Source: an uncultured Clostridia bacterium
GTDB lineage: Bacteria; Bacillota; Clostridia; Oscillospirales; Oscillospiraceae
DNA: 63,187 nt
Reading direction: 5' to 3'
Assembly: GCA_947165085.1 (NCBI GenBank)
Contig: CAMUZA010000006.1
Location: 1-63,187, forward strand
A program made the position numbers and the translations under genes. The notes beneath the pieces were generated by a model, which had not been told where the DNA came from, ran no database searches, and saw only the letters and a list, made by a program, of their open reading frames with translations. Shown one piece after another: positions 6,875 to 14,861 of the stretch; the first letter of the stretch is position 1, and each line of letters opens with the position of its first letter.

Positions 6875-8932
6875 TTATTTCGCGGTCGCGGACGCGGCAG
6901 CGCTGCCATTGACCAGCAGCGTGTAGGTCTGTCCGCTGAGAAGATCGGCAGAGGTGAAGAAAACGTAGCTTGCCTGACGGATCGCGGCCGCTGTGTAAAG
7001 CGTTTTCCCGCTCGCGTCCTGCACAGTGATCGTGCTGCCGGCAGGGATAGAAACGCCGCCCTGCCCGGGCTGACCGGGATTCCAGCCTCCGCCGGGTCCT
7101 CCTCCCCCGGGACCGCCGGGGCCTCCCGGAGCTCCGTGACCGCCGCCCGCGCCGAAGCTCAAATAGTGCTGCGTTGCGCTGTTCGGCGTCTGTGCCATCC
7201 CGCCGCTGCCGACAGCCAGTACCGTGCCGCCGGTGAGCGTGAGTTTTCCGTCGCAGTCCAGGGGCGCATTGTCGTTTTGGGAGGAAGAGAACACGGTAAC
7301 GACGCCTCCAGCCAGCGTCAAGCTGCCGTTGGAGTCTATGCCATCGCCGTTCTCAGCATCGACATAGAGCGTGCCACCGTATATATTCAGTGAGAAGCCG
7401 TAGCCGGTCAGATCACTGTTTGCCGCATTCATGCCGTCGTCCGTCGCGTGGACGGTGATATTGCCGGAATAGACGTTGAGCGTTGCGGCTTCGATTCCCT
7501 CGTTGCTCTTCACAATGTTGATCATGGGACCATCCGCACCTTCTTGCCCGATGTTGAGCACCAGATCGCTCTTTATGCCGTCGTCAACCGCGCTGATCGT
7601 GATATTGCCGCTGAGAACGTTCAGTTCCTGATCGGATTTCAGACCGTCATTGGCGTTGGCGGTGATGTTCAGCGTCAACTCCTTTACGGTGAGCCAAGCC
7701 TCACCCTCGCTCTCGGTCGTCGCGCCGCCTTTAACGCCGTTCTTGCCGTTGGCGATCACGTTGATCGTGCCAGTGCCGCAGATGGTGACCTGCGAGCCGT
7801 CCTTGCACTTAATGACCGCATTTTCGGCATTGGCGTTGTCCGGATAGGTTTCATCGTTGTTCTGCTCGCTGTCGATCAGCGTGTTTTCCGTACCTGCAGC
7901 CGCCACGATAGTGACTGCCGTACTCTTATTGCACGCGATCGGCGCGGTATCGGTGGACGTCAGAGTCAGGTTATTGAGGATCAGCGTCACGCCGGTGGTA
8001 CCCTTTTTGACGGTGATAGAGCCGTCCCGGCAGACGCCGCTGACAGAATAGGTTCCTGCGCCGTTGATCGACAGTGCGGTGCCGACGATCTTGTACGCGG
8101 TGTCTGTGTTGCCGCTGACCGTGATCTCGTCATTGTAGAACGTGAAGTACGTTACATCGGAGACAGGTTCCGTGGGCTCCGTCGGCTCCGTCGGAGGTTC
8201 CGTCGGTTCGGTCGCGGGTTCCGTCGGTTCGGTCGCAGGTTCCGTCGGTTCGGTCGCAGGTTCCGTCGGTTCGGTCGCAGGTTCCGTCGGTGCAGTCGTC
8301 GGTTCCTGCGGCTCGAACGGTTCAATATCGTCCGCCCGATAGAGGAAGGTCACGGTCTCAGCTCTGGTAACGGTCTTGTACGGAGAGAAGATCGTTGCAG
8401 AGGTACCCTTTGTGACGCCGTTTTCGACCGCCCAAAGCACAGCGGCGCAGAAATAGTCGCCTGCCGCAACATCCGTGAACGGGATCGCGCCTTCGAGGTC
8501 AACATCGGGAGCACCCGCAGCTCTGTAAAGGAAGGTCACGACCTGCGCGCGTGTACAGAAATCGTTCGGACTGAAGGATGTCGCCGAGGTGCCGGACGTG
8601 ATCCCGTTCTCCACCGCCCAGAGGACAGCGTCGTAATAGTACGCGCTTTTGCTGACGTCGGTGAAGTCGCAATTTGCGAGCGTCGGCGCGGGACTGCCTG
8701 CCGCGCGCCAGAGGAAGGTGACGATCTGCGCGCGGGTGCAGGAATCGTTCGGGCTGAAGGTCGTCGCGGAGGTGCCGACGGTCACCTCGTTCTCCACCGC
8801 CCACTGCACCGCGTCATAGTAATAGGCGTCCCCGCTGACGTCAGAGAACCCGCTCGCTGCAGCAAACGCCGTCGCGGCGAGGGAGATCGTCAGGCACAGG
8901 CAGGTAATGATGGCGAGTATTCTGCGTTTCAT
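6875..8932 (-). CDS. SLH-anchored Cthe_2159-type carbohydrate-binding surface protein
   Basis: 685 residues. Signal peptide (cleavage probably near AFA-AAS, residue 24), then three SLH domains (about 28-75, 88-135, 150-200; each with an F(S/T)DV start and a TRAQxVTFL(W/Y)RA end) that should bind the pyruvylated secondary cell-wall polymer. A threonine/proline/glutamate linker of 7-residue repeats follows (about 210-250), then a long parallel beta-helix of the Cthe_2159 family (about 255-600, with repeated DDGI/NGxDGxDSNG turns), a Gly/Pro-rich stretch and a C-terminal beta domain. Cthe_2159 of Clostridium thermocellum binds acidic polysaccharides and calcium, so binding of polyanions at the cell surface is likely here. 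Last gene of the VTC/DUF4956/MBL unit; a pyruvyl transferase for SLH ligands exists at 36971-38062. Confidence 0.9.
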   Translation of the reverse strand: MKRRILAIITCLCLTISLAATAFAAASGFSDVSGDAYYYDAVQWAVENEVTVGTSATTFSPNDSCTRAQIVTFLWRAAGSPAPTLANCDFTDVSKSAYYYDAVLWAVENGITSGTSATSFSPNDFCTRAQVVTFLYRAAGAPDVDLEGAIPFTDVAAGDYFCAAVLWAVENGVTKGTSATIFSPYKTVTRAETVTFLYRADDIEPFEPQEPTTAPTEPATEPTEPATEPTEPATEPTEPATEPTEPPTEPTEPTEPVSDVTYFTFYNDEITVSGNTDTAYKIVGTALSINGAGTYSVSGVCRDGSITVKKGTTGVTLILNNLTLTSTDTAPIACNKSTAVTIVAAAGTENTLIDSEQNNDETYPDNANAENAVIKCKDGSQVTICGTGTINVIANGKNGVKGGATTESEGEAWLTVKELTLNITANANDGLKSDQELNVLSGNITISAVDDGIKSDLVLNIGQEGADGPMINIVKSNEGIEAATLNVYSGNITVHATDDGMNAANSDLTGYGFSLNIYGGTLYVDAENGDGIDSNGSLTLAGGVVTVFSSSQNDNAPLDCDGKLTLTGGTVLAVGSGGMAQTPNSATQHYLSFGAGGGHGAPGGPGGPGGGGPGGGWNPGQPGQGGVSIPAGSTITVQDASGKTLYTAAAIRQASYVFFTSADLLSGQTYTLLVNGSAAASATAK
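8196..8300 (-). repeat. 21-base tandem repeat encoding the EPATEPT linker
   Basis: Four near-identical 21-base units with starts at 8196, 8217, 8238 and 8259 plus a partial fifth, in frame with the SLH gene. Each unit encodes seven residues of a Thr/Pro/Glu linker. Copy number is likely to vary between strains. Confidence 0.9.
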
Positions 8933-8938
8933 ATTGGT

Positions 8939-9778
8939 TCACTCCTCCAATTTTAGATTTATTCCGTCGCTGTACAGGGTAACCGCGTCGTTTCGTGTAA
9001 GCAGAACGCAGATTCCTGCGTTCTTGAGCGTCTCGACGACCGCTTCGCTCTCCGGCTCTTCGTCGGAGGACGTAATGATCGCGTAGGTCGGCTGCGTCGA
9101 GGCAAGCAGATCGTCCAGCAGCGGCTCGTCCTTGCCGTGGTGCGGGATCTTCAGAACGTCGAAGTTCGTCGTATTCGTGTCAAGGAACTCCTTTAACCGC
9201 TCCGTCTGCGCATCGCCGGTGAACAGAAAACGGTTTTCCCCGTTCGTGACGGAAACGATCAGCGAGGAATTGTTGCTGCTGTCCTCGTCATATTCCGTCC
9301 GCCGCGGCGGATCGACGGAATAGGAAACGCCACCGAGCGTGAATTCATAGCGCTCACGAACGGTAACCGGTTCGATCCCGGCGGCGGAAAGCGCGTTGAC
9401 GTAGTTCTCGTATTCCTCACTGTCCTTCGGGCAGTTGCTCTGCAGCACTGTGCCGACCGGGATTTCCTTCAGCACTTTCGCCGCACCTCCGACGTGATCC
9501 TTGTCAAAGTGCGTAACAATCAGATAGCTAAGCCGTTCGACGCCCATATCCGCGAGATAGGACAGGATCGTCTTGCCGAAGCCCTTCTCGCCGGCATCGA
9601 TCAGAACGGCGCCGTTTCCCGTCGTCAGCAGGATCGCATCCGCCTTTCCGGCCTTGAAGAAATGGACTGCCATTTCTGCCGGGCCTTCGTTTTCCGACGC
9701 ATGTTCCGTGCCGGAAAACCCACAGCCGGTCAGAACGAGCGCGGCAGCAAGCAGGATTGCCGCGAGTCTGCCGCGCAT
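8939..9778 (-). CDS. Metallo-beta-lactamase-fold lipoprotein (ComEC/Rec2 C-terminal type)
   Basis: 279 residues with a lipoprotein signal (LAAALVLTGCG, acylated Cys at about 19) and an MBL-fold hydrolase domain: THFDKDHVGGA (about 88-98), FTGDAQTERL (about 195), and KIPHHGKDEP (about 216). The motif pattern is that of the extracellular nuclease-like C-terminal domain of ComEC, here as a separate, membrane-tethered exported protein. The substrate could be DNA, a phosphodiester or a polyphosphate. It sits between DUF4956 (1-base gap) and the SLH gene (6-base gap) in one transcription unit. Which substrate it uses cannot be told from sequence. Confidence 0.87.
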   Translation of the reverse strand: MRGRLAAILLAAALVLTGCGFSGTEHASENEGPAEMAVHFFKAGKADAILLTTGNGAVLIDAGEKGFGKTILSYLADMGVERLSYLIVTHFDKDHVGGAAKVLKEIPVGTVLQSNCPKDSEEYENYVNALSAAGIEPVTVRERYEFTLGGVSYSVDPPRRTEYDEDSSNNSSLIVSVTNGENRFLFTGDAQTERLKEFLDTNTTNFDVLKIPHHGKDEPLLDDLLASTQPTYAIITSSDEEPESEAVVETLKNAGICVLLTRNDAVTLYSDGINLKLEE

Positions 9779-9779
9779 A

Positions 9780-10445
9780 TCACAGCGCCTCCTTCGTCAC
9801 GGGCTTGCCGCAGACGATATTAAGATTGCCGTTGCGCGTGCGCAGGTCGTCGAGGAACGCCTTGGTCGCGTGCGTATCGCGCAGCACGACCTTGTAGCAC
9901 AGCTCGTAGAGCGTACCCATATTTGTCGTCTTAACGCGCTCCAGCTCGGAAAAGCGGGTGTACTTTTCAAACAGATCGTCGAACAGGCCGTCGTAGTTCA
10001 GTCCTTCGGGGATCGTGATTTTAAGCTCGCGCTCGTCCGCCGCGCCTGCGCCGAAGCCGGTCACGCTCAAGAGGAGCCACGCCGCTGCGATGATGACGAA
10101 AAACACCGCCGCGATCGCCACATAGCCCATGCCGGTCGCAAGACCGATCGCAGTCGCAAGGAAGACCAGACCGATCTCCTTCGCGCTGCCGGGCGCGCTG
10201 CGGAAGCGGATCAAGCCGAACGCGCCTGCGACCGCCACGCCTGCGCCGATGTTTCCGTTGACCATCATAATGACGAGCTGTACCAGCGCGGGCAGCACTG
10301 CAAGTGTCAGAACGAAGCTCTTGGAATACTTGGACTTGAACATACCCAGCGCAGCCGTGCCGAGTCCGAGCAGCAGCGAGACCGCCGTGCAAATGAAGAA
10401 TGCAGCTGCGGTGATTTCCGTTCCTGTAATGATCGAGTTAAGCAC
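9780..10445 (-). CDS. DUF4956 membrane protein
   Basis: 221 residues: four hydrophobic segments in the first 135 residues, a conserved loop GAFGLIRFRSAPGSAKEIG (about 75-93), then a cytoplasmic domain ending at 221. This is the DUF4956 family, whose function is unknown; the charged FGLIRFR-S-PG motif between membrane segments 2-3 is its hallmark. The 5' end overlaps the VTC-domain gene by 8 bases, indicating translational coupling. Known genome neighbourhoods pair VTC-domain proteins with DUF4956 and CotH or carbohydrate-binding proteins, so it is probably a membrane partner of the polymerase. Confidence 0.9.
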   Translation of the reverse strand: MLNSIITGTEITAAAFFICTAVSLLLGLGTAALGMFKSKYSKSFVLTLAVLPALVQLVIMMVNGNIGAGVAVAGAFGLIRFRSAPGSAKEIGLVFLATAIGLATGMGYVAIAAVFFVIIAAAWLLLSVTGFGAGAADERELKITIPEGLNYDGLFDDLFEKYTRFSELERVKTTNMGTLYELCYKVVLRDTHATKAFLDDLRTRNGNLNIVCGKPVTKEAL

Positions 10446-11169
10446 TGCGAACGACCTCCTTTTGGCACACGGCGGGCTTTCCGCCGAGCACGAATTGTTG
10501 ATAATACGTTCCGTATTTGGAAAACCGCGTTGAGAAAATGCGGTTCTCGGAGAGGAGCTTTGACAGCCACAGCGGTGCTGCGCCGGGAATTTTGATCTCC
10601 ATCAGAATCAGATCATCCGGCAGGAGCGGCACGCCGTGATCGCCGAAACACAGGTCGACGTCGTTTTCTCTGGCGCGAAGCGCGGTATCGAAGGTAATCC
10701 GCAGCTCCCCGCCGTCTGCCGCGGCGAACGCCTCACGGTCGTAGGCGATCATCACCTTCGGCTCCGGACGGTAGATCCGCAGGAACCAGTCGATCTCTCT
10801 GCCGATCTGGCTGCCGTCGCTTGCTGCCGTACCTCCCAGCCATGCAGCGGCCCGCTGCATCGGCATCGTGACGCGGCGCTTATAGACCACGCCGTCGTAC
10901 TTTTTCTTGATCTCGACGAACACGTTGTCCCGAGCGCCGGGAACGCCGTAGCTGCGCAGCCGCAGCTTTTCCTTATACACCGGCTTTTCCAGCGACGCAC
11001 GGATCAGATCGTAGTTTACCGTGTCGTAATAGATGTTGCTGATCGAATAGCGCGGATGCGCATCCGGCTTCATATATGCCGCCATTCCAAGCCGCATGGC
11101 AAGGTACTGTGTTTTGGTCAGAAGATACTTTTCTTCATACCGCTTGAAGCAGCTTTGCAGTTCGCTCAT
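10438..11169 (-). CDS. VTC-domain polyphosphate polymerase-like protein
   Basis: 243 residues covering a single VTC domain, the tunnel-fold catalytic domain of yeast Vtc4. Visible family features are FKRYEEKYLLT (about 8-18), the SISNIYYDT strand, KLRLRSYG (basic residues lining the tunnel), FVEIKKKYDGVVYKRR (about 105-120), and the ILMEIKIPG strand near the C-terminus with its Glu. In yeast the enzyme makes polyphosphate from ATP; the bacterial versions are annotated by homology only. It lacks a membrane segment, so membrane coupling would come from DUF4956, which overlaps it. The gene leads the four-gene leftward unit and is preceded by a repeat-carrying promoter (11216-11282). Confidence 0.9.
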   Translation of the reverse strand: MSELQSCFKRYEEKYLLTKTQYLAMRLGMAAYMKPDAHPRYSISNIYYDTVNYDLIRASLEKPVYKEKLRLRSYGVPGARDNVFVEIKKKYDGVVYKRRVTMPMQRAAAWLGGTAASDGSQIGREIDWFLRIYRPEPKVMIAYDREAFAAADGGELRITFDTALRARENDVDLCFGDHGVPLLPDDLILMEIKIPGAAPLWLSKLLSENRIFSTRFSKYGTYYQQFVLGGKPAVCQKEVVRSA

Positions 11170-11215: not shown

Positions 11216-11282
11216 ATCATAGCAGACGGCGACGCCGGAAATCTCCGAGAAAGAGCGGCGAAATTTACGAAAAACGCACGAA
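11216..11282 (-). promoter_or_regulatory. Promoter of the VTC operon with 11-base direct repeats
   Basis: Minus strand: extended -10 TGCTATGAT (-10 hexamer 11221-11216) with no good -35 (AGATTT). Two abutting 11-base units, TTCGTGCGTTT (11282-11272) and TTCGTAAATTT (11271-11261), lie 39 bases upstream of the -10, and a related unit CTCGGAGATTT follows two units later. The same layout occurs at 13486-13551. OmpR/PhoB-type regulators bind such 11-base-spaced repeats, and the gene next door encodes one. The assignment to that regulator is inferred. Confidence 0.55.
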
Positions 11283-11286
11283 GCGC

Positions 11287-11353
11287 TTCGTAAGGATTGC
11301 GGCAGTTTTCGCCCTCTAAACGCATTGATTTTGCGGTTTTCGGCTGATATAAT
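11287..11353 (+). promoter_or_regulatory. Promoter of the two-component system, with possible repeat box
   Basis: TTGATT (11325-11330), 17-base spacer, TATAAT (11348-11353), 31 bases before the ATG at 11385. Upstream, TTCGTAAGGAT and TGCGGCAGTTT (11287-11308) are 11-base units in the same position relative to the -10 (39 bases) as the repeats of the other two promoters, though less conserved. The first overlaps a perfect 14-base palindrome (acgaagcgcttcgt, 11278-11291) shared with the divergent VTC promoter. Core promoter is solid; the boxes are tentative. Confidence 0.65.
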
Positions 11354-11384
11354 AAAGAAAACAGTGAAAGCGAGGAATATCGCG

Positions 11385-12086
11385 ATGCCAAACGAACGCA
11401 AACGGATCTACGTCGCCGACGATGACGATAACATCCGCCAGATCGTCAAGACCTTCCTGTCCAGCGACGGCTATACGGTCGAGGACTTCCCGACCGGCGA
11501 TCTTCTGCTGGAGCGGTTCCGGCAGGAGTCATGCGACCTGGCGATCCTTGACGTGATGATGCCCGGCTCGGACGGCTTTACGGTCTGCACGGAACTGCGG
11601 AAGCTCAGCACGGTGCCGATCATTATGCTGACAGCCCGCGATTCGGAAAACGATTACGCTATGGGTCTCGGTCTCGGCAGCGACGACTATATCACCAAGC
11701 CCTTCTCCGCGATGGCGCTGCTGATGCGGGTACGCGCCATCTTCCGCCGGATCGACTTTGAAAGCCGGAAGCACGAGGCGCCCGCTGCGGCTGCCGTTTC
11801 TGTCGGCAAGCTGACGCTGGACGAGGATCGGCGGCATATTCTGAGCGGCGGCGCACCCCTCGCCCTCACGCCGACGGAATATGAGGTATTAAAGTATCTG
11901 ATGCTCCGTGCAGATCAGGCGGTCTCCCGCGAGGAGCTTCTCAATTCCGTCTGGGGCTTCGAGGCAGTCGTGGAAACGAGAGCAACGGACGACACGGTGC
12001 GCAGGCTGCGTCAGAAGCTGGAGGGCTGCGGCGTCAATATTGCCGCCGTCTGGGGCTACGGTTTCCGCCTGGAGGAGATCAAATGA
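11385..12086 (+). CDS. OmpR/PhoB-family response regulator
   Basis: 233 residues: receiver domain with the acidic pocket DDDD (12-15), phospho-acceptor Asp56 (LAILDVMMP), the TAR motif and the conserved Lys in YITKPF, followed by a winged-helix DNA-binding domain (about 133-230; LTPTEYEVLKYL, VVETRATDDTVRRLRQK). The start is placed at 11385, with GAGGA 10 bases upstream. The stop overlaps the kinase start (ATGA). It sits between two promoters carrying matching direct repeats and is the obvious candidate to control the VTC operon and the lipoprotein gene at 13587. Confidence 0.95.
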   Translation: MPNERKRIYVADDDDNIRQIVKTFLSSDGYTVEDFPTGDLLLERFRQESCDLAILDVMMPGSDGFTVCTELRKLSTVPIIMLTARDSENDYAMGLGLGSDDYITKPFSAMALLMRVRAIFRRIDFESRKHEAPAAAAVSVGKLTLDEDRRHILSGGAPLALTPTEYEVLKYLMLRADQAVSREELLNSVWGFEAVVETRATDDTVRRLRQKLEGCGVNIAAVWGYGFRLEEIK

Positions 12087-13438
12087 AAAAGCAGCGACAT
12101 ATCCGGACTCGTCTGCTGGCGACGATGATCGGTCTGCCTTGCGCGATCCTGCTGGCAGTCATGCTGGTATTCAATATCGCCGTGCAGAGCTATATCCGCT
12201 CCAGCGTTTCCAGGCAGCTCAATTCGGTGACGCAGAGCGTATCGGATGATCGGCGTATGGACGGACACGGGCCGAAGGAGGGCGAGCCCTTTTGGGGCAG
12301 ATCTGCTCGCGTGCGCGGCGTGGAATACAGCGCGGCGGTGCGGTCCGGTCAGAACGCTCTTGTCGCCGTGCTGCACGGCGACAGGGCCGTCGCAGAAGAA
12401 CTGGCAGATTATGTTCGCGCGAACGGTCTGACCGTCGGCACGAAGTACAAGGTCCTGTCTACGGACAGCGGCACCTATACGGTCAGTTTAATTGAGGACC
12501 CCGTGCAGGCAGAAAACCGTCTGCTCGTATATGCCGACGTGACTGCGATCACCGGCTTCACGCTTCGCGTCAACCTCATTCTTTTGGTCGTCATTCTTGC
12601 GGCAGTCGCGGTCTCCGTTCTTTTGAGCCGCCGCTTTGCAAAGTCCTTTGCAAAGCCGGTGCAAACGCTTTCCGATTTCGCCGCGGACATTGGCAGCGGA
12701 GAGCTGGAGCAGCGGGAACTGGATTTCCGCGATATGGAGTTCCGGCAGCTCGCAGAGTCGATGAACCGTATGGTCGAGGAATTGAAACAAGCCAAGCAGA
12801 AGCAGGAGACCTTCTTTCAAAACGTCTCCCATGAGCTTCGAACGCCGCTCACCTCCATTCGCGGAAATGCGGAGGGCATTCTCTGCGACCTGATCGAGCC
12901 GAAGGCGGCGGGGCAGGTCATTCTCTCGGAGGCGGACAGGCTCGGCGGGATGGTGGAGGATATCCTCTACCTCTCTCGTATGGGAAAAGGGAGACCGGAG
13001 GGCACCGTTGAGCCGGTCGATCTGCGGGAAGTTCTGTCGCTCTGCGTTTCCGAACAGCACGCAGAGGCGAACAAAAAGGGACTGACCTTCTCATTCGACT
13101 TTGACGAAGCGCCCTGTATGCTGCCGATGCGGGAGCAGGACGCGCAGCGAATGTTCGGCAATCTGATCTCCAATGCACTGCGCTACGCGAAGAAAGAAAT
13201 CCGGCTGTTCTGCCGCGGCAGCGGTGATGCAATCACTGTCCGCGTCGCAGACGACGGCTCCGGCATCGCGGAGGAAGACCTGCCGCACGTCTTTGAACGG
13301 TTCTATAAAGGAAAAGACGGAAAGCACGGCATCGGGCTCGCAATCGCGCAGTCCGTCGCGGAGACGTATCACGGCACGCTGCGCGCCCGGAACGAGAACG
13401 GCGCGGTCTTTGAAGCGGTTTTCCCCATTGGCGGATAG
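12083..13438 (+). CDS. Membrane sensor histidine kinase
   Basis: 451 residues: TM1 (about 11-35), a short extracytoplasmic sensor (about 36-160), TM2 (about 161-183), HAMP (about 185-240), His phosphorylation motif FQNVSHELRTPL (His250), N-box FGNLISNALRY, G1 DDGSGI, F-box FERFYKG and G2 GIGLAIA. The extracellular part is small and has no recognised ligand-binding fold. It overlaps the response regulator gene by 4 bases and is its partner. A terminator follows at 13456. Confidence 0.95.
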   Translation: MKKQRHIRTRLLATMIGLPCAILLAVMLVFNIAVQSYIRSSVSRQLNSVTQSVSDDRRMDGHGPKEGEPFWGRSARVRGVEYSAAVRSGQNALVAVLHGDRAVAEELADYVRANGLTVGTKYKVLSTDSGTYTVSLIEDPVQAENRLLVYADVTAITGFTLRVNLILLVVILAAVAVSVLLSRRFAKSFAKPVQTLSDFAADIGSGELEQRELDFRDMEFRQLAESMNRMVEELKQAKQKQETFFQNVSHELRTPLTSIRGNAEGILCDLIEPKAAGQVILSEADRLGGMVEDILYLSRMGKGRPEGTVEPVDLREVLSLCVSEQHAEANKKGLTFSFDFDEAPCMLPMREQDAQRMFGNLISNALRYAKKEIRLFCRGSGDAITVRVADDGSGIAEEDLPHVFERFYKGKDGKHGIGLAIAQSVAETYHGTLRARNENGAVFEAVFPIGG

Positions 13439-13455
13439 GGGCATATAGATATAGA

Positions 13456-13487
13456 AAGAACGCTGACCGTGCGGTCGGCGTTCTTTT
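13456..13487 (+). terminator. Terminator after the two-component system
   Basis: Hairpin aagaacgctgacc / ggtcggcgttctt with a GTGC loop and a T4 tail. It ends where the repeat-bearing promoter of the next gene begins. Confidence 0.8.
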
Positions 13488-13551
13488 CGTATATTCTGCG
13501 TGTTTTCTGCCGTAGCTTTTCGGAGATTCCTTCACCGCCGCGTGCTACAAT
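13486..13551 (+). promoter_or_regulatory. Promoter of the Cthe_2159 lipoprotein with 11-base direct repeats
   Basis: Extended -10 TGCTACAAT (hexamer 13546-13551), poor -35 (gagatt). Two 11-base units, TTCGTATATTC (13486-13496) and TGCGTGTTTTC (13497-13507), lie 38 bases upstream of the -10. The intervening segment shares GCCG and TCGGAGATT in the same register with the VTC operon promoter. A promoter with no -35 and upstream direct repeats suggests activation by the neighbouring OmpR-type regulator. Confidence 0.55.
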
Positions 13552-13586: not shown

Positions 13587-14861
13587 ATGAAAAACCTGAA
13601 GCATCTTTCAATCATTCTTATTGTCGCAGTCCTTGCGTCGGCGCTGCTCCTGTCTGCCTGCGGGATCATCGGGCAGTCGGCAAGCGCGGACAATACGGCG
13701 TCGACTCTTTCAAGCGGCACTTCTTCGGTCGCTGCCGGCGAAGCCTACGAGGCAGCGTTTTCCGACCGCGATCTCTCCGGCGAATACGATTCCGACGGGA
13801 GTGTGACGATCTTGCTGAACGGAGCGAGCGCAACGGCAAGCTCCGCAGCCGTGCAGGTTTCCGGCGGCACCGTAACGATTACGGCGGGCGGCACGTACGT
13901 CCTGTCCGGTACGCTGGAAAACGGCAGCATCATCGTTAACGTCAGCAAGGACGACAAGGTCCAACTCGTCCTCGACGGCGCGACGATCCATTCGGAAATC
14001 TTCGCAGCGATCTACGTCGTACAGGCAGACAAGGTATTCGTCACGCTGGCGGACGCCTCGGTCAACACGCTTTCCAACGGCGGCAGCTACGTGCAGATCG
14101 ACGACAACGACGTGGACGCAGTCGTCTTTGCCAAGGACGACATCACCTTCAATGGCAGCGGCACGCTCCACATCACCGCCGAAGCCGGCAGCGGTATTGT
14201 CGGCAAGGACGAGGTGACGATCACCGCGGGCGTCTATGAGATCAGCGCGGCAAAACACGCGATCCGGGCAAAGGACAGTCTCGCGATTGCGGACGGCAGC
14301 TTCACGCTCACCGCGGCGGAGGACGGTCTGCACGCCGAGAACAGCGACGACGACACGCTCGGCAATATCTATCTTGCGGGCGGCAGCTTCGTCATCACCG
14401 TGGGCGACGATGCGATCCACGCCAACACCCTGCTGCAGATCGACGGCGGCGCCTTCCAAATTACCGCGGCGGAGGGGCTGGAAGCAACCTACATTCAGAT
14501 CAACGGCGGCGATATCCAGATCTCGGCTTCCGACGACGGCGTCAACGCCGCGTACAAGTCCACAAGCTATACGCCGACCTTTGAAATGAACAGCGGAACG
14601 CTGACCGTCGTGATGGGCGCGGGCGATACCGACGCCGTTGATTCCAACGGCAACATCGTCATCAACGGCGGCACGATCGACATAACCGGACAGTCCGCCT
14701 TCGATTACGATGGCACAGCCCAGTATAACGGCGGCACGATCATCGTCAACGGCCAGCAGATTGACTCCATCCCCAACCAGATGATGGGCGGCATGGGCGG
14801 CATGGGCGGCTCCGGCGACATGGGCGGCTCCGGCGGCATGGGCGGCGGACGGCGCCATTAA
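13587..14861 (+). CDS. Cthe_2159-type carbohydrate-binding lipoprotein
   Basis: 424 residues: lipoprotein signal (SALLLSACG, Cys about 26), a Ser/Thr/Ala-rich spacer, then a right-handed beta-helix of the Cthe_2159 family from about residue 60 to 390 (repeated ITA/GGxFxIT/DDGVNA turns), and a C-terminal Met/Gly-rich tail (GGMGGMGGSGDMGG). It is a membrane-anchored relative of the SLH-anchored protein at 6875-8932, so the module displays the same fold at two depths of the envelope. GGAGG precedes the ATG. It probably binds polyanionic polymers with calcium; enzymatic activity is not evident. Confidence 0.9.
   Translation: MKNLKHLSIILIVAVLASALLLSACGIIGQSASADNTASTLSSGTSSVAAGEAYEAAFSDRDLSGEYDSDGSVTILLNGASATASSAAVQVSGGTVTITAGGTYVLSGTLENGSIIVNVSKDDKVQLVLDGATIHSEIFAAIYVVQADKVFVTLADASVNTLSNGGSYVQIDDNDVDAVVFAKDDITFNGSGTLHITAEAGSGIVGKDEVTITAGVYEISAAKHAIRAKDSLAIADGSFTLTAAEDGLHAENSDDDTLGNIYLAGGSFVITVGDDAIHANTLLQIDGGAFQITAAEGLEATYIQINGGDIQISASDDGVNAAYKSTSYTPTFEMNSGTLTVVMGAGDTDAVDSNGNIVINGGTIDITGQSAFDYDGTAQYNGGTIIVNGQQIDSIPNQMMGGMGGMGGSGDMGGSGGMGGGRRH

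Follow-up and report, generated by a model that had tools for sequence, protein, structure and literature searches.

How is a gene set that pairs a VTC-domain protein with a Cthe_2159 carbohydrate-binding lipoprotein controlled in a ruminal Clostridia genome, and is the two-component system encoded between them responsible? The window analysed here, 63,187 nucleotides long, is one of the 94 contigs of a 1.93 Mb genome whose closest named relatives are ruminal Oscillospiraceae MAGs. An earlier examination of the window (the original prediction) had proposed that 11-base direct repeats in three of its promoters are bound by the regulator encoded among them. Our analysis supports a switch of four tandem repeats, which very probably, judging from the DNA and its conservation, turns on the VTC operon and the carbohydrate-binding surface protein.

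Organization of the locus

The locus is divergent, with the VTC operon on the minus strand and the regulator, kinase and lipoprotein genes on the plus strand. The regulator (11385–12086, +) contains Response_reg and Trans_reg_C domains, so that an OmpR/PhoB-type protein and predicted operator binder is indeed encoded between the targets. It is followed by its cognate histidine kinase (12083–13438, +), of HAMP-HisKA-HATPase organization with an extracellular domain, and by a lipoprotein with a Cthe_2159 carbohydrate-binding domain (13587–14861, +; PF14262, 1.1e-80), a predicted target. A model of the kinase sensor domain (pLDDT 73) gave weak, mixed matches only, PAS/Cache-like sensors among them.

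The first two genes of the predicted target operon encode a VTC-domain, polyphosphate polymerase-like protein (10438–11169, −; PF09359, 6.7e-39) and a DUF4956 membrane protein (9780–10445, −; PF16316). By collinearity, a metallo-beta-lactamase-fold lipoprotein (8939–9778, −) and a surface protein with SLH and Cthe_2159 domains (6875–8932, −) are assigned as its third and fourth genes. The former scores 207.6 bits against the NCBIfam model blaAHM, for which the cut-off is 590, and has similarity to the hydrolase domain of ComEC as well; it is unlikely to be a genuine beta-lactamase.

Four-unit operators at the target promoters

Two abutting 11-base units had been described at each of the three promoters, 39, 38 and 39 bp upstream of the −10; every sequence and distance given agrees exactly with the DNA. 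The repeats of the VTC and lipoprotein promoters are real and conserved, but the original prediction saw only two units of an array of four. The consensus array consists of four 11-bp-phased units, TTCGTATGTTT-TTCGTAAATTT-cGCcGCnnTTT-TTCGGAGATTT. The GCCG and TCGGAGATT noted as shared between these promoters are present; given the four-unit register, they belong to units III and IV, and TCGGAGATT constitutes unit IV, on the −35 position.

The VTC operator (11239–11282, −) comprises unit I TTCGTGCGTTT (11282–11272), unit II TTCGTAAATTT (11271–11261), unit III CGCCGCTCTTT (11260–11250) and unit IV CTCGGAGATTT (11249–11239), the last lying on the −35 position. Its −10, TATGAT (11221–11216, −), is located 61 bp from the start of unit I and 39 bp after unit II. 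The lipoprotein operator (13486–13529, +) is built in the same way from TTCGTATATTC (13486–13496), TGCGTGTTTTC (13497–13507), TGCCGTAGCTT (13508–13518) and TTCGGAGATTC (13519–13529), with the −10 TACAAT (13546–13551, +) 60 bp from the start of unit I and 38 bp after unit II. The start-to-start distance between unit I and the −10 is 60 or 61 bp in 77 of 79 distinct operators collected from orthologous loci. The −35 position is taken up by unit IV, and the match to TTGACA there is just 2/6 in 60 of the 79, in line with the claim that neither target promoter has a usable −35.

Similarity to the mean of units I and II has its maxima precisely at offsets 22 and 33. The units hold 1.0–1.4 bits of information per position against 0.22 in the spacer. 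The resulting layout, head-to-tail 11-bp repeats at 0, 11, 22 and 33 that lie upstream of and over the −35, is that of an OmpR/PhoB-type operator. Unit III is degenerate relative to the other three (correlation 0.35), with the core GCCGC in place of TTCGT, and may instead be a spacer or be contacted by another factor. More broadly, only units I and II could be sites of the regulator, units III and IV forming an extended −35-like element or the contact of another protein. The differing sequences of III and IV (GCCGC and TCGGAGA) would suit such an arrangement, as would the regulator's own promoter, which retains only the equivalents of I and II. We regard it as unlikely, since the similarity maxima at 22 and 33 are in phase and TCGGAGA does not resemble a −35. 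Furthermore, unit III reads TGCGGGGCTTT and TGCGGCTTTTT in two divergent members (L069 and L074), where the four-fold repeat is therefore plain.

Conservation across orthologous loci

Within the window alone the evidence is marginal: the two 44-bp elements agree at 28 of 44 positions, barely above the best chance match at 26 of 44, and accidental similarity within so short a stretch could account for this. Conservation across orthologous loci decides the matter. A search for the regulator in named genomes returned 80 loci. Some 55 are close orthologues (61–94% identity), in which the order regulator, kinase, Cthe_2159 lipoprotein is usual and VTC–DUF4956 is often divergent. Phylogenetic footprinting, the check that the original prediction had set for itself, found the repeats in the promoter at each of the 21 orthologous loci where a VTC gene is divergent, and at nearly all of those with the lipoprotein gene. 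Mean pairwise identity among the 79 operators is 72%, compared with 32% in the spacer next to them and 33% in the flank upstream. When operators are compared within one genome only, identity is again 72%, with 27–31% for the flanks. A reversed control pattern has no match in 1.29 Mb of loci. Most loci come from MAGs of related ruminal Clostridia, so the counts are not independent events. With the array retained in about 55 loci whose flanks are random, and zero control matches in 300 genomes of the family, the chance reading is already refuted.

The genes behind the 86 sites found in all loci encode Cthe_2159 proteins (42), VTC proteins (23), secreted PepSY-domain proteins (13) and a DUF4956 protein (1), with 7 unassigned, and constitute a predicted envelope-facing regulon. 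The operator stays with the regulator while the divergent gene changes between VTC, a PepSY protein and a giant Cthe_2159 protein. Where VTC is not divergent, the gene behind the same operator is often that of a small secreted PepSY-domain protein (L039:5297-5779, L052:4140-4967, L070:5160-5807, L073:5246-5818, L078:4289-4801), which suggests a common envelope function. At one further locus, the operator precedes a gene for a phosphodiester glycosidase (NAGPA; L049:1499-2440, − strand). In one locus the lipoprotein operator occurs twice as identical 41-bp copies about 2 kb apart (L042:8135 and L042:10209; G316:C19:55034 and 57108), implying a recent duplication of a target promoter.

Specificity within genomes

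The motif search of the host genome that had been proposed, run with the full pattern and up to 3 mismatches, returned exactly two full operators, both at this locus. A third site with one mismatch (C23:25900) was dismissed as chance; it falls within a pair of ParA/ParB-like genes, and the control too gave one match. Among 300 genomes of the family, nine carry the operator, and these are exactly the nine that encode the regulator with at least 64% identity. They hold 18 operator sites, the host genome counted in, while control patterns gave no match across the 300 genomes. As the carrier genomes are related, this co-occurrence is strong but does not amount to independent counting.

The regulator promoter and the divergent junction

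The weaker repeat reported at the regulator's own promoter is real. It consists of two units, TTCGTAAGGAT (11287–11297, +) and TGCGGCAGTTT (11298–11308, +), and the two-unit consensus, TTCGTATGGATTGCGGCAGTTT, is kept in 39 loci. Units III and IV are not conserved at this promoter, which instead has a −35 (TTGATT/TTGAAA) and a 17-bp spacer. In the window, TTGATT (11325–11330, +) is followed after 17 bp by the −10 TATAAT (11348–11353, +), 39 bp after the second unit. With a −35 of its own, the promoter is probably not strictly activator-dependent.

The VTC and regulator operators stand head to head across a gap of 4 bp (11283–11286), a distance found in 41 of 45 loci. A 14-bp palindrome, ACGAAGCGCTTCGT (11278–11291), is centred on this gap and could suit a dimeric regulator. 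The array might then belong to another transcription factor, with the two-component system merely adjoining it. However, the lipoprotein promoters lack the palindrome, for which reason we rejected it as the primary site, and they nevertheless keep the direct repeats. The 11-bp phasing is an OmpR/PhoB signature (PMC4415409), and operator and regulator occur side by side in the same nine of 300 genomes. Binding by another factor is thus highly improbable.

The distance from repeat to −10 at the regulator promoter is 60 or 61 bp in 36 loci, 50 or 51 bp in six and 59 bp in one; none of these loci has a −10 at 52–58 bp. The two main classes differ by one helical turn. On the tree, with the window's own row disregarded, the 50/51 class needs four changes, at least three of which are forced by well-supported branches. 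Two such classes would be the trace expected of a contact with RNA polymerase that depends on the face of the helix. It is possible, if somewhat doubtful, that the divergent region forms a single head-to-head super-operator of four plus two units with an invariant 4-bp gap. One cooperative regulator complex would then serve two promoters in two modes, replacing the −35 at the target and acting from upstream at its own promoter in a helix-phased manner that can shift by one turn.

Proposed mechanism

We propose, with a probability of roughly 0.88, that the response regulator whose gene lies between the targets uses the array as its operator, in a local autoregulated system predicted to activate the VTC operon and the Cthe_2159 lipoprotein gene. 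Four protomers of the phosphorylated regulator, arranged as two head-to-tail dimers, would occupy the four tandem 11-bp units. The protomer closest to the −10 would lie over the −35 position and stand in for the missing sigma −35 contacts, so that both targets would be transcribed only while the kinase is active. At the regulator gene, the two-unit operator upstream of a canonical sigma-70 promoter would allow basal transcription together with helix-phased autoregulation. The regulon would be local: each genome would have two or three such promoters, none more than a few kilobases from the regulator. In this scheme we infer the binding, the protomer stoichiometry, activation rather than repression, the dependence on phosphorylation and the signal.

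The same operator and regulator could also act in the opposite sense, the bound protein blocking RNA polymerase until a signal relieves it. Unit IV overlaps the −35 position, from which a bound protein can also exclude sigma. Nevertheless, repression appears improbable: target promoters without a usable −35 (2/6 in 60 of 79) would have little basal activity to repress, and the geometry of the array fits activation of the PhoB type (PMC4415409, PMC3348028).

Identity of the regulator

The regulator matches PF00072 (4.1e-27) and PF00486 (6.3e-20), as members of the OmpR/PhoB family do, and aligns end to end with the structures of RegX3, PhoP and BaeR. In the alignment with RegX3, the phospho-acceptor aspartate, the acidic pair and the lysine are kept (DDDD, LDVMMPG with D56, and TKPF). 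The recognition helix of the winged helix, TRATDDTVRRLR, is invariant in all operator carriers.

We considered and rejected an identity as PhoB of a phosphate regulon. The protein does not reach the PhoB equivalog cut-offs (TIGR02154, 182.9 versus 296.2 bits; NF007546, 140.5 versus 471), and among the 25 models listed it passes no equivalog cut-off for VanR, WalR/YycF or other named regulators. The host genome has no PstB over the cut-off and no separate PhoU, PhoU domains being found only within one 614-aa open frame. Together, these results indicate that the regulator is not the phosphate regulator PhoB.

Relation to known systems

The operator of Bacillus subtilis YclJ is an 11-bp direct repeat resembling TTCATA-N-TTT. 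To our knowledge, this is the nearest known half-site to the operator described here. YclJ targets the glycosylation operons yngABC and ykcBC, in contrast to the VTC and Cthe_2159 genes of this locus (PMC7961091, which names Ogura 2010 as the mapping paper).

PHO boxes are defined by two 11-nt direct repeats (PMC4415409), and the −35 is occupied jointly by a PhoB dimer and sigma (PMC3348028). The Escherichia coli PhoB/pho box system thus shares with ours a winged-helix response regulator, 11-bp head-to-tail repeats, a box that replaces the −35 and a retained sigma-70 −10 (PMC4415409, PMC3348028). It differs in its core, CTGTCAT against TTCGTA/TGCGTA here. Moreover, in our system a four-unit array is standard, the regulon lies locally beside VTC/Cthe_2159 genes, and the regulator is far below the PhoB equivalog cut-off (183 versus 296 bits). 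Streptomyces PhoP operators likewise vary in the number and organization of their direct-repeat units, from simple to complex, but have the core GTTCACC and serve a global phosphate regulon (PMC4415409).

A comparable gene set is known from Gram-positive pel loci, where, in the available part of the account, cotH, a polyphosphate polymerase and DUF4956 form an accessory cluster, and the VTC-type polymerase–DUF4956 pair appears as an envelope- or exopolysaccharide-linked cassette (PMC7112168). That part ties the cassette to pel genes, unlike here, and contains neither an 11-bp operator nor a dedicated two-component system. Our literature search found no earlier description of the four-unit motif or of the regulation of the VTC–DUF4956/Cthe_2159 gene set. 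The operator and its regulon are new; the type of switch is conventional and well known. The bacterial gene set thereby gains a predicted operator, regulator and closed regulon, and the predicted sites provide testable targets and a search motif. Shared control, as read from the promoters, would tie a polyphosphate polymerase-like enzyme to surface carbohydrate-binding, SLH and PepSY proteins.

Repeats beside more distant regulators

At L081, whose regulator is 62% identical, the regulator's own promoter carries a full array, TGCGTACGCTT-TGCGTCAGGAA-...-TTCGGAAGATT-16 bp-TATAAT, with the hallmark TTCGGAAGATT ahead of the gene's own TATAAT. L084 (61% identity, same recognition helix) shows no clear array in the flank, and homologues of 47–55% identity, searched for altered 11-bp repeats, have no recognisable array. 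Beside the 54%-identical regulator of L085, a perfect 11-bp tandem, TTGTGGCAAAA TTGTGGCAAAA (L085:58-79), lies just upstream of the regulator's own gene and is possibly an operator of altered specificity. A pair TGCGGCAAAAT-TGCGTCAAATC is present near the own promoter of L008, and as altered 11-bp repeats near own promoters the L085 and L008 pairs are no more than suggestive.
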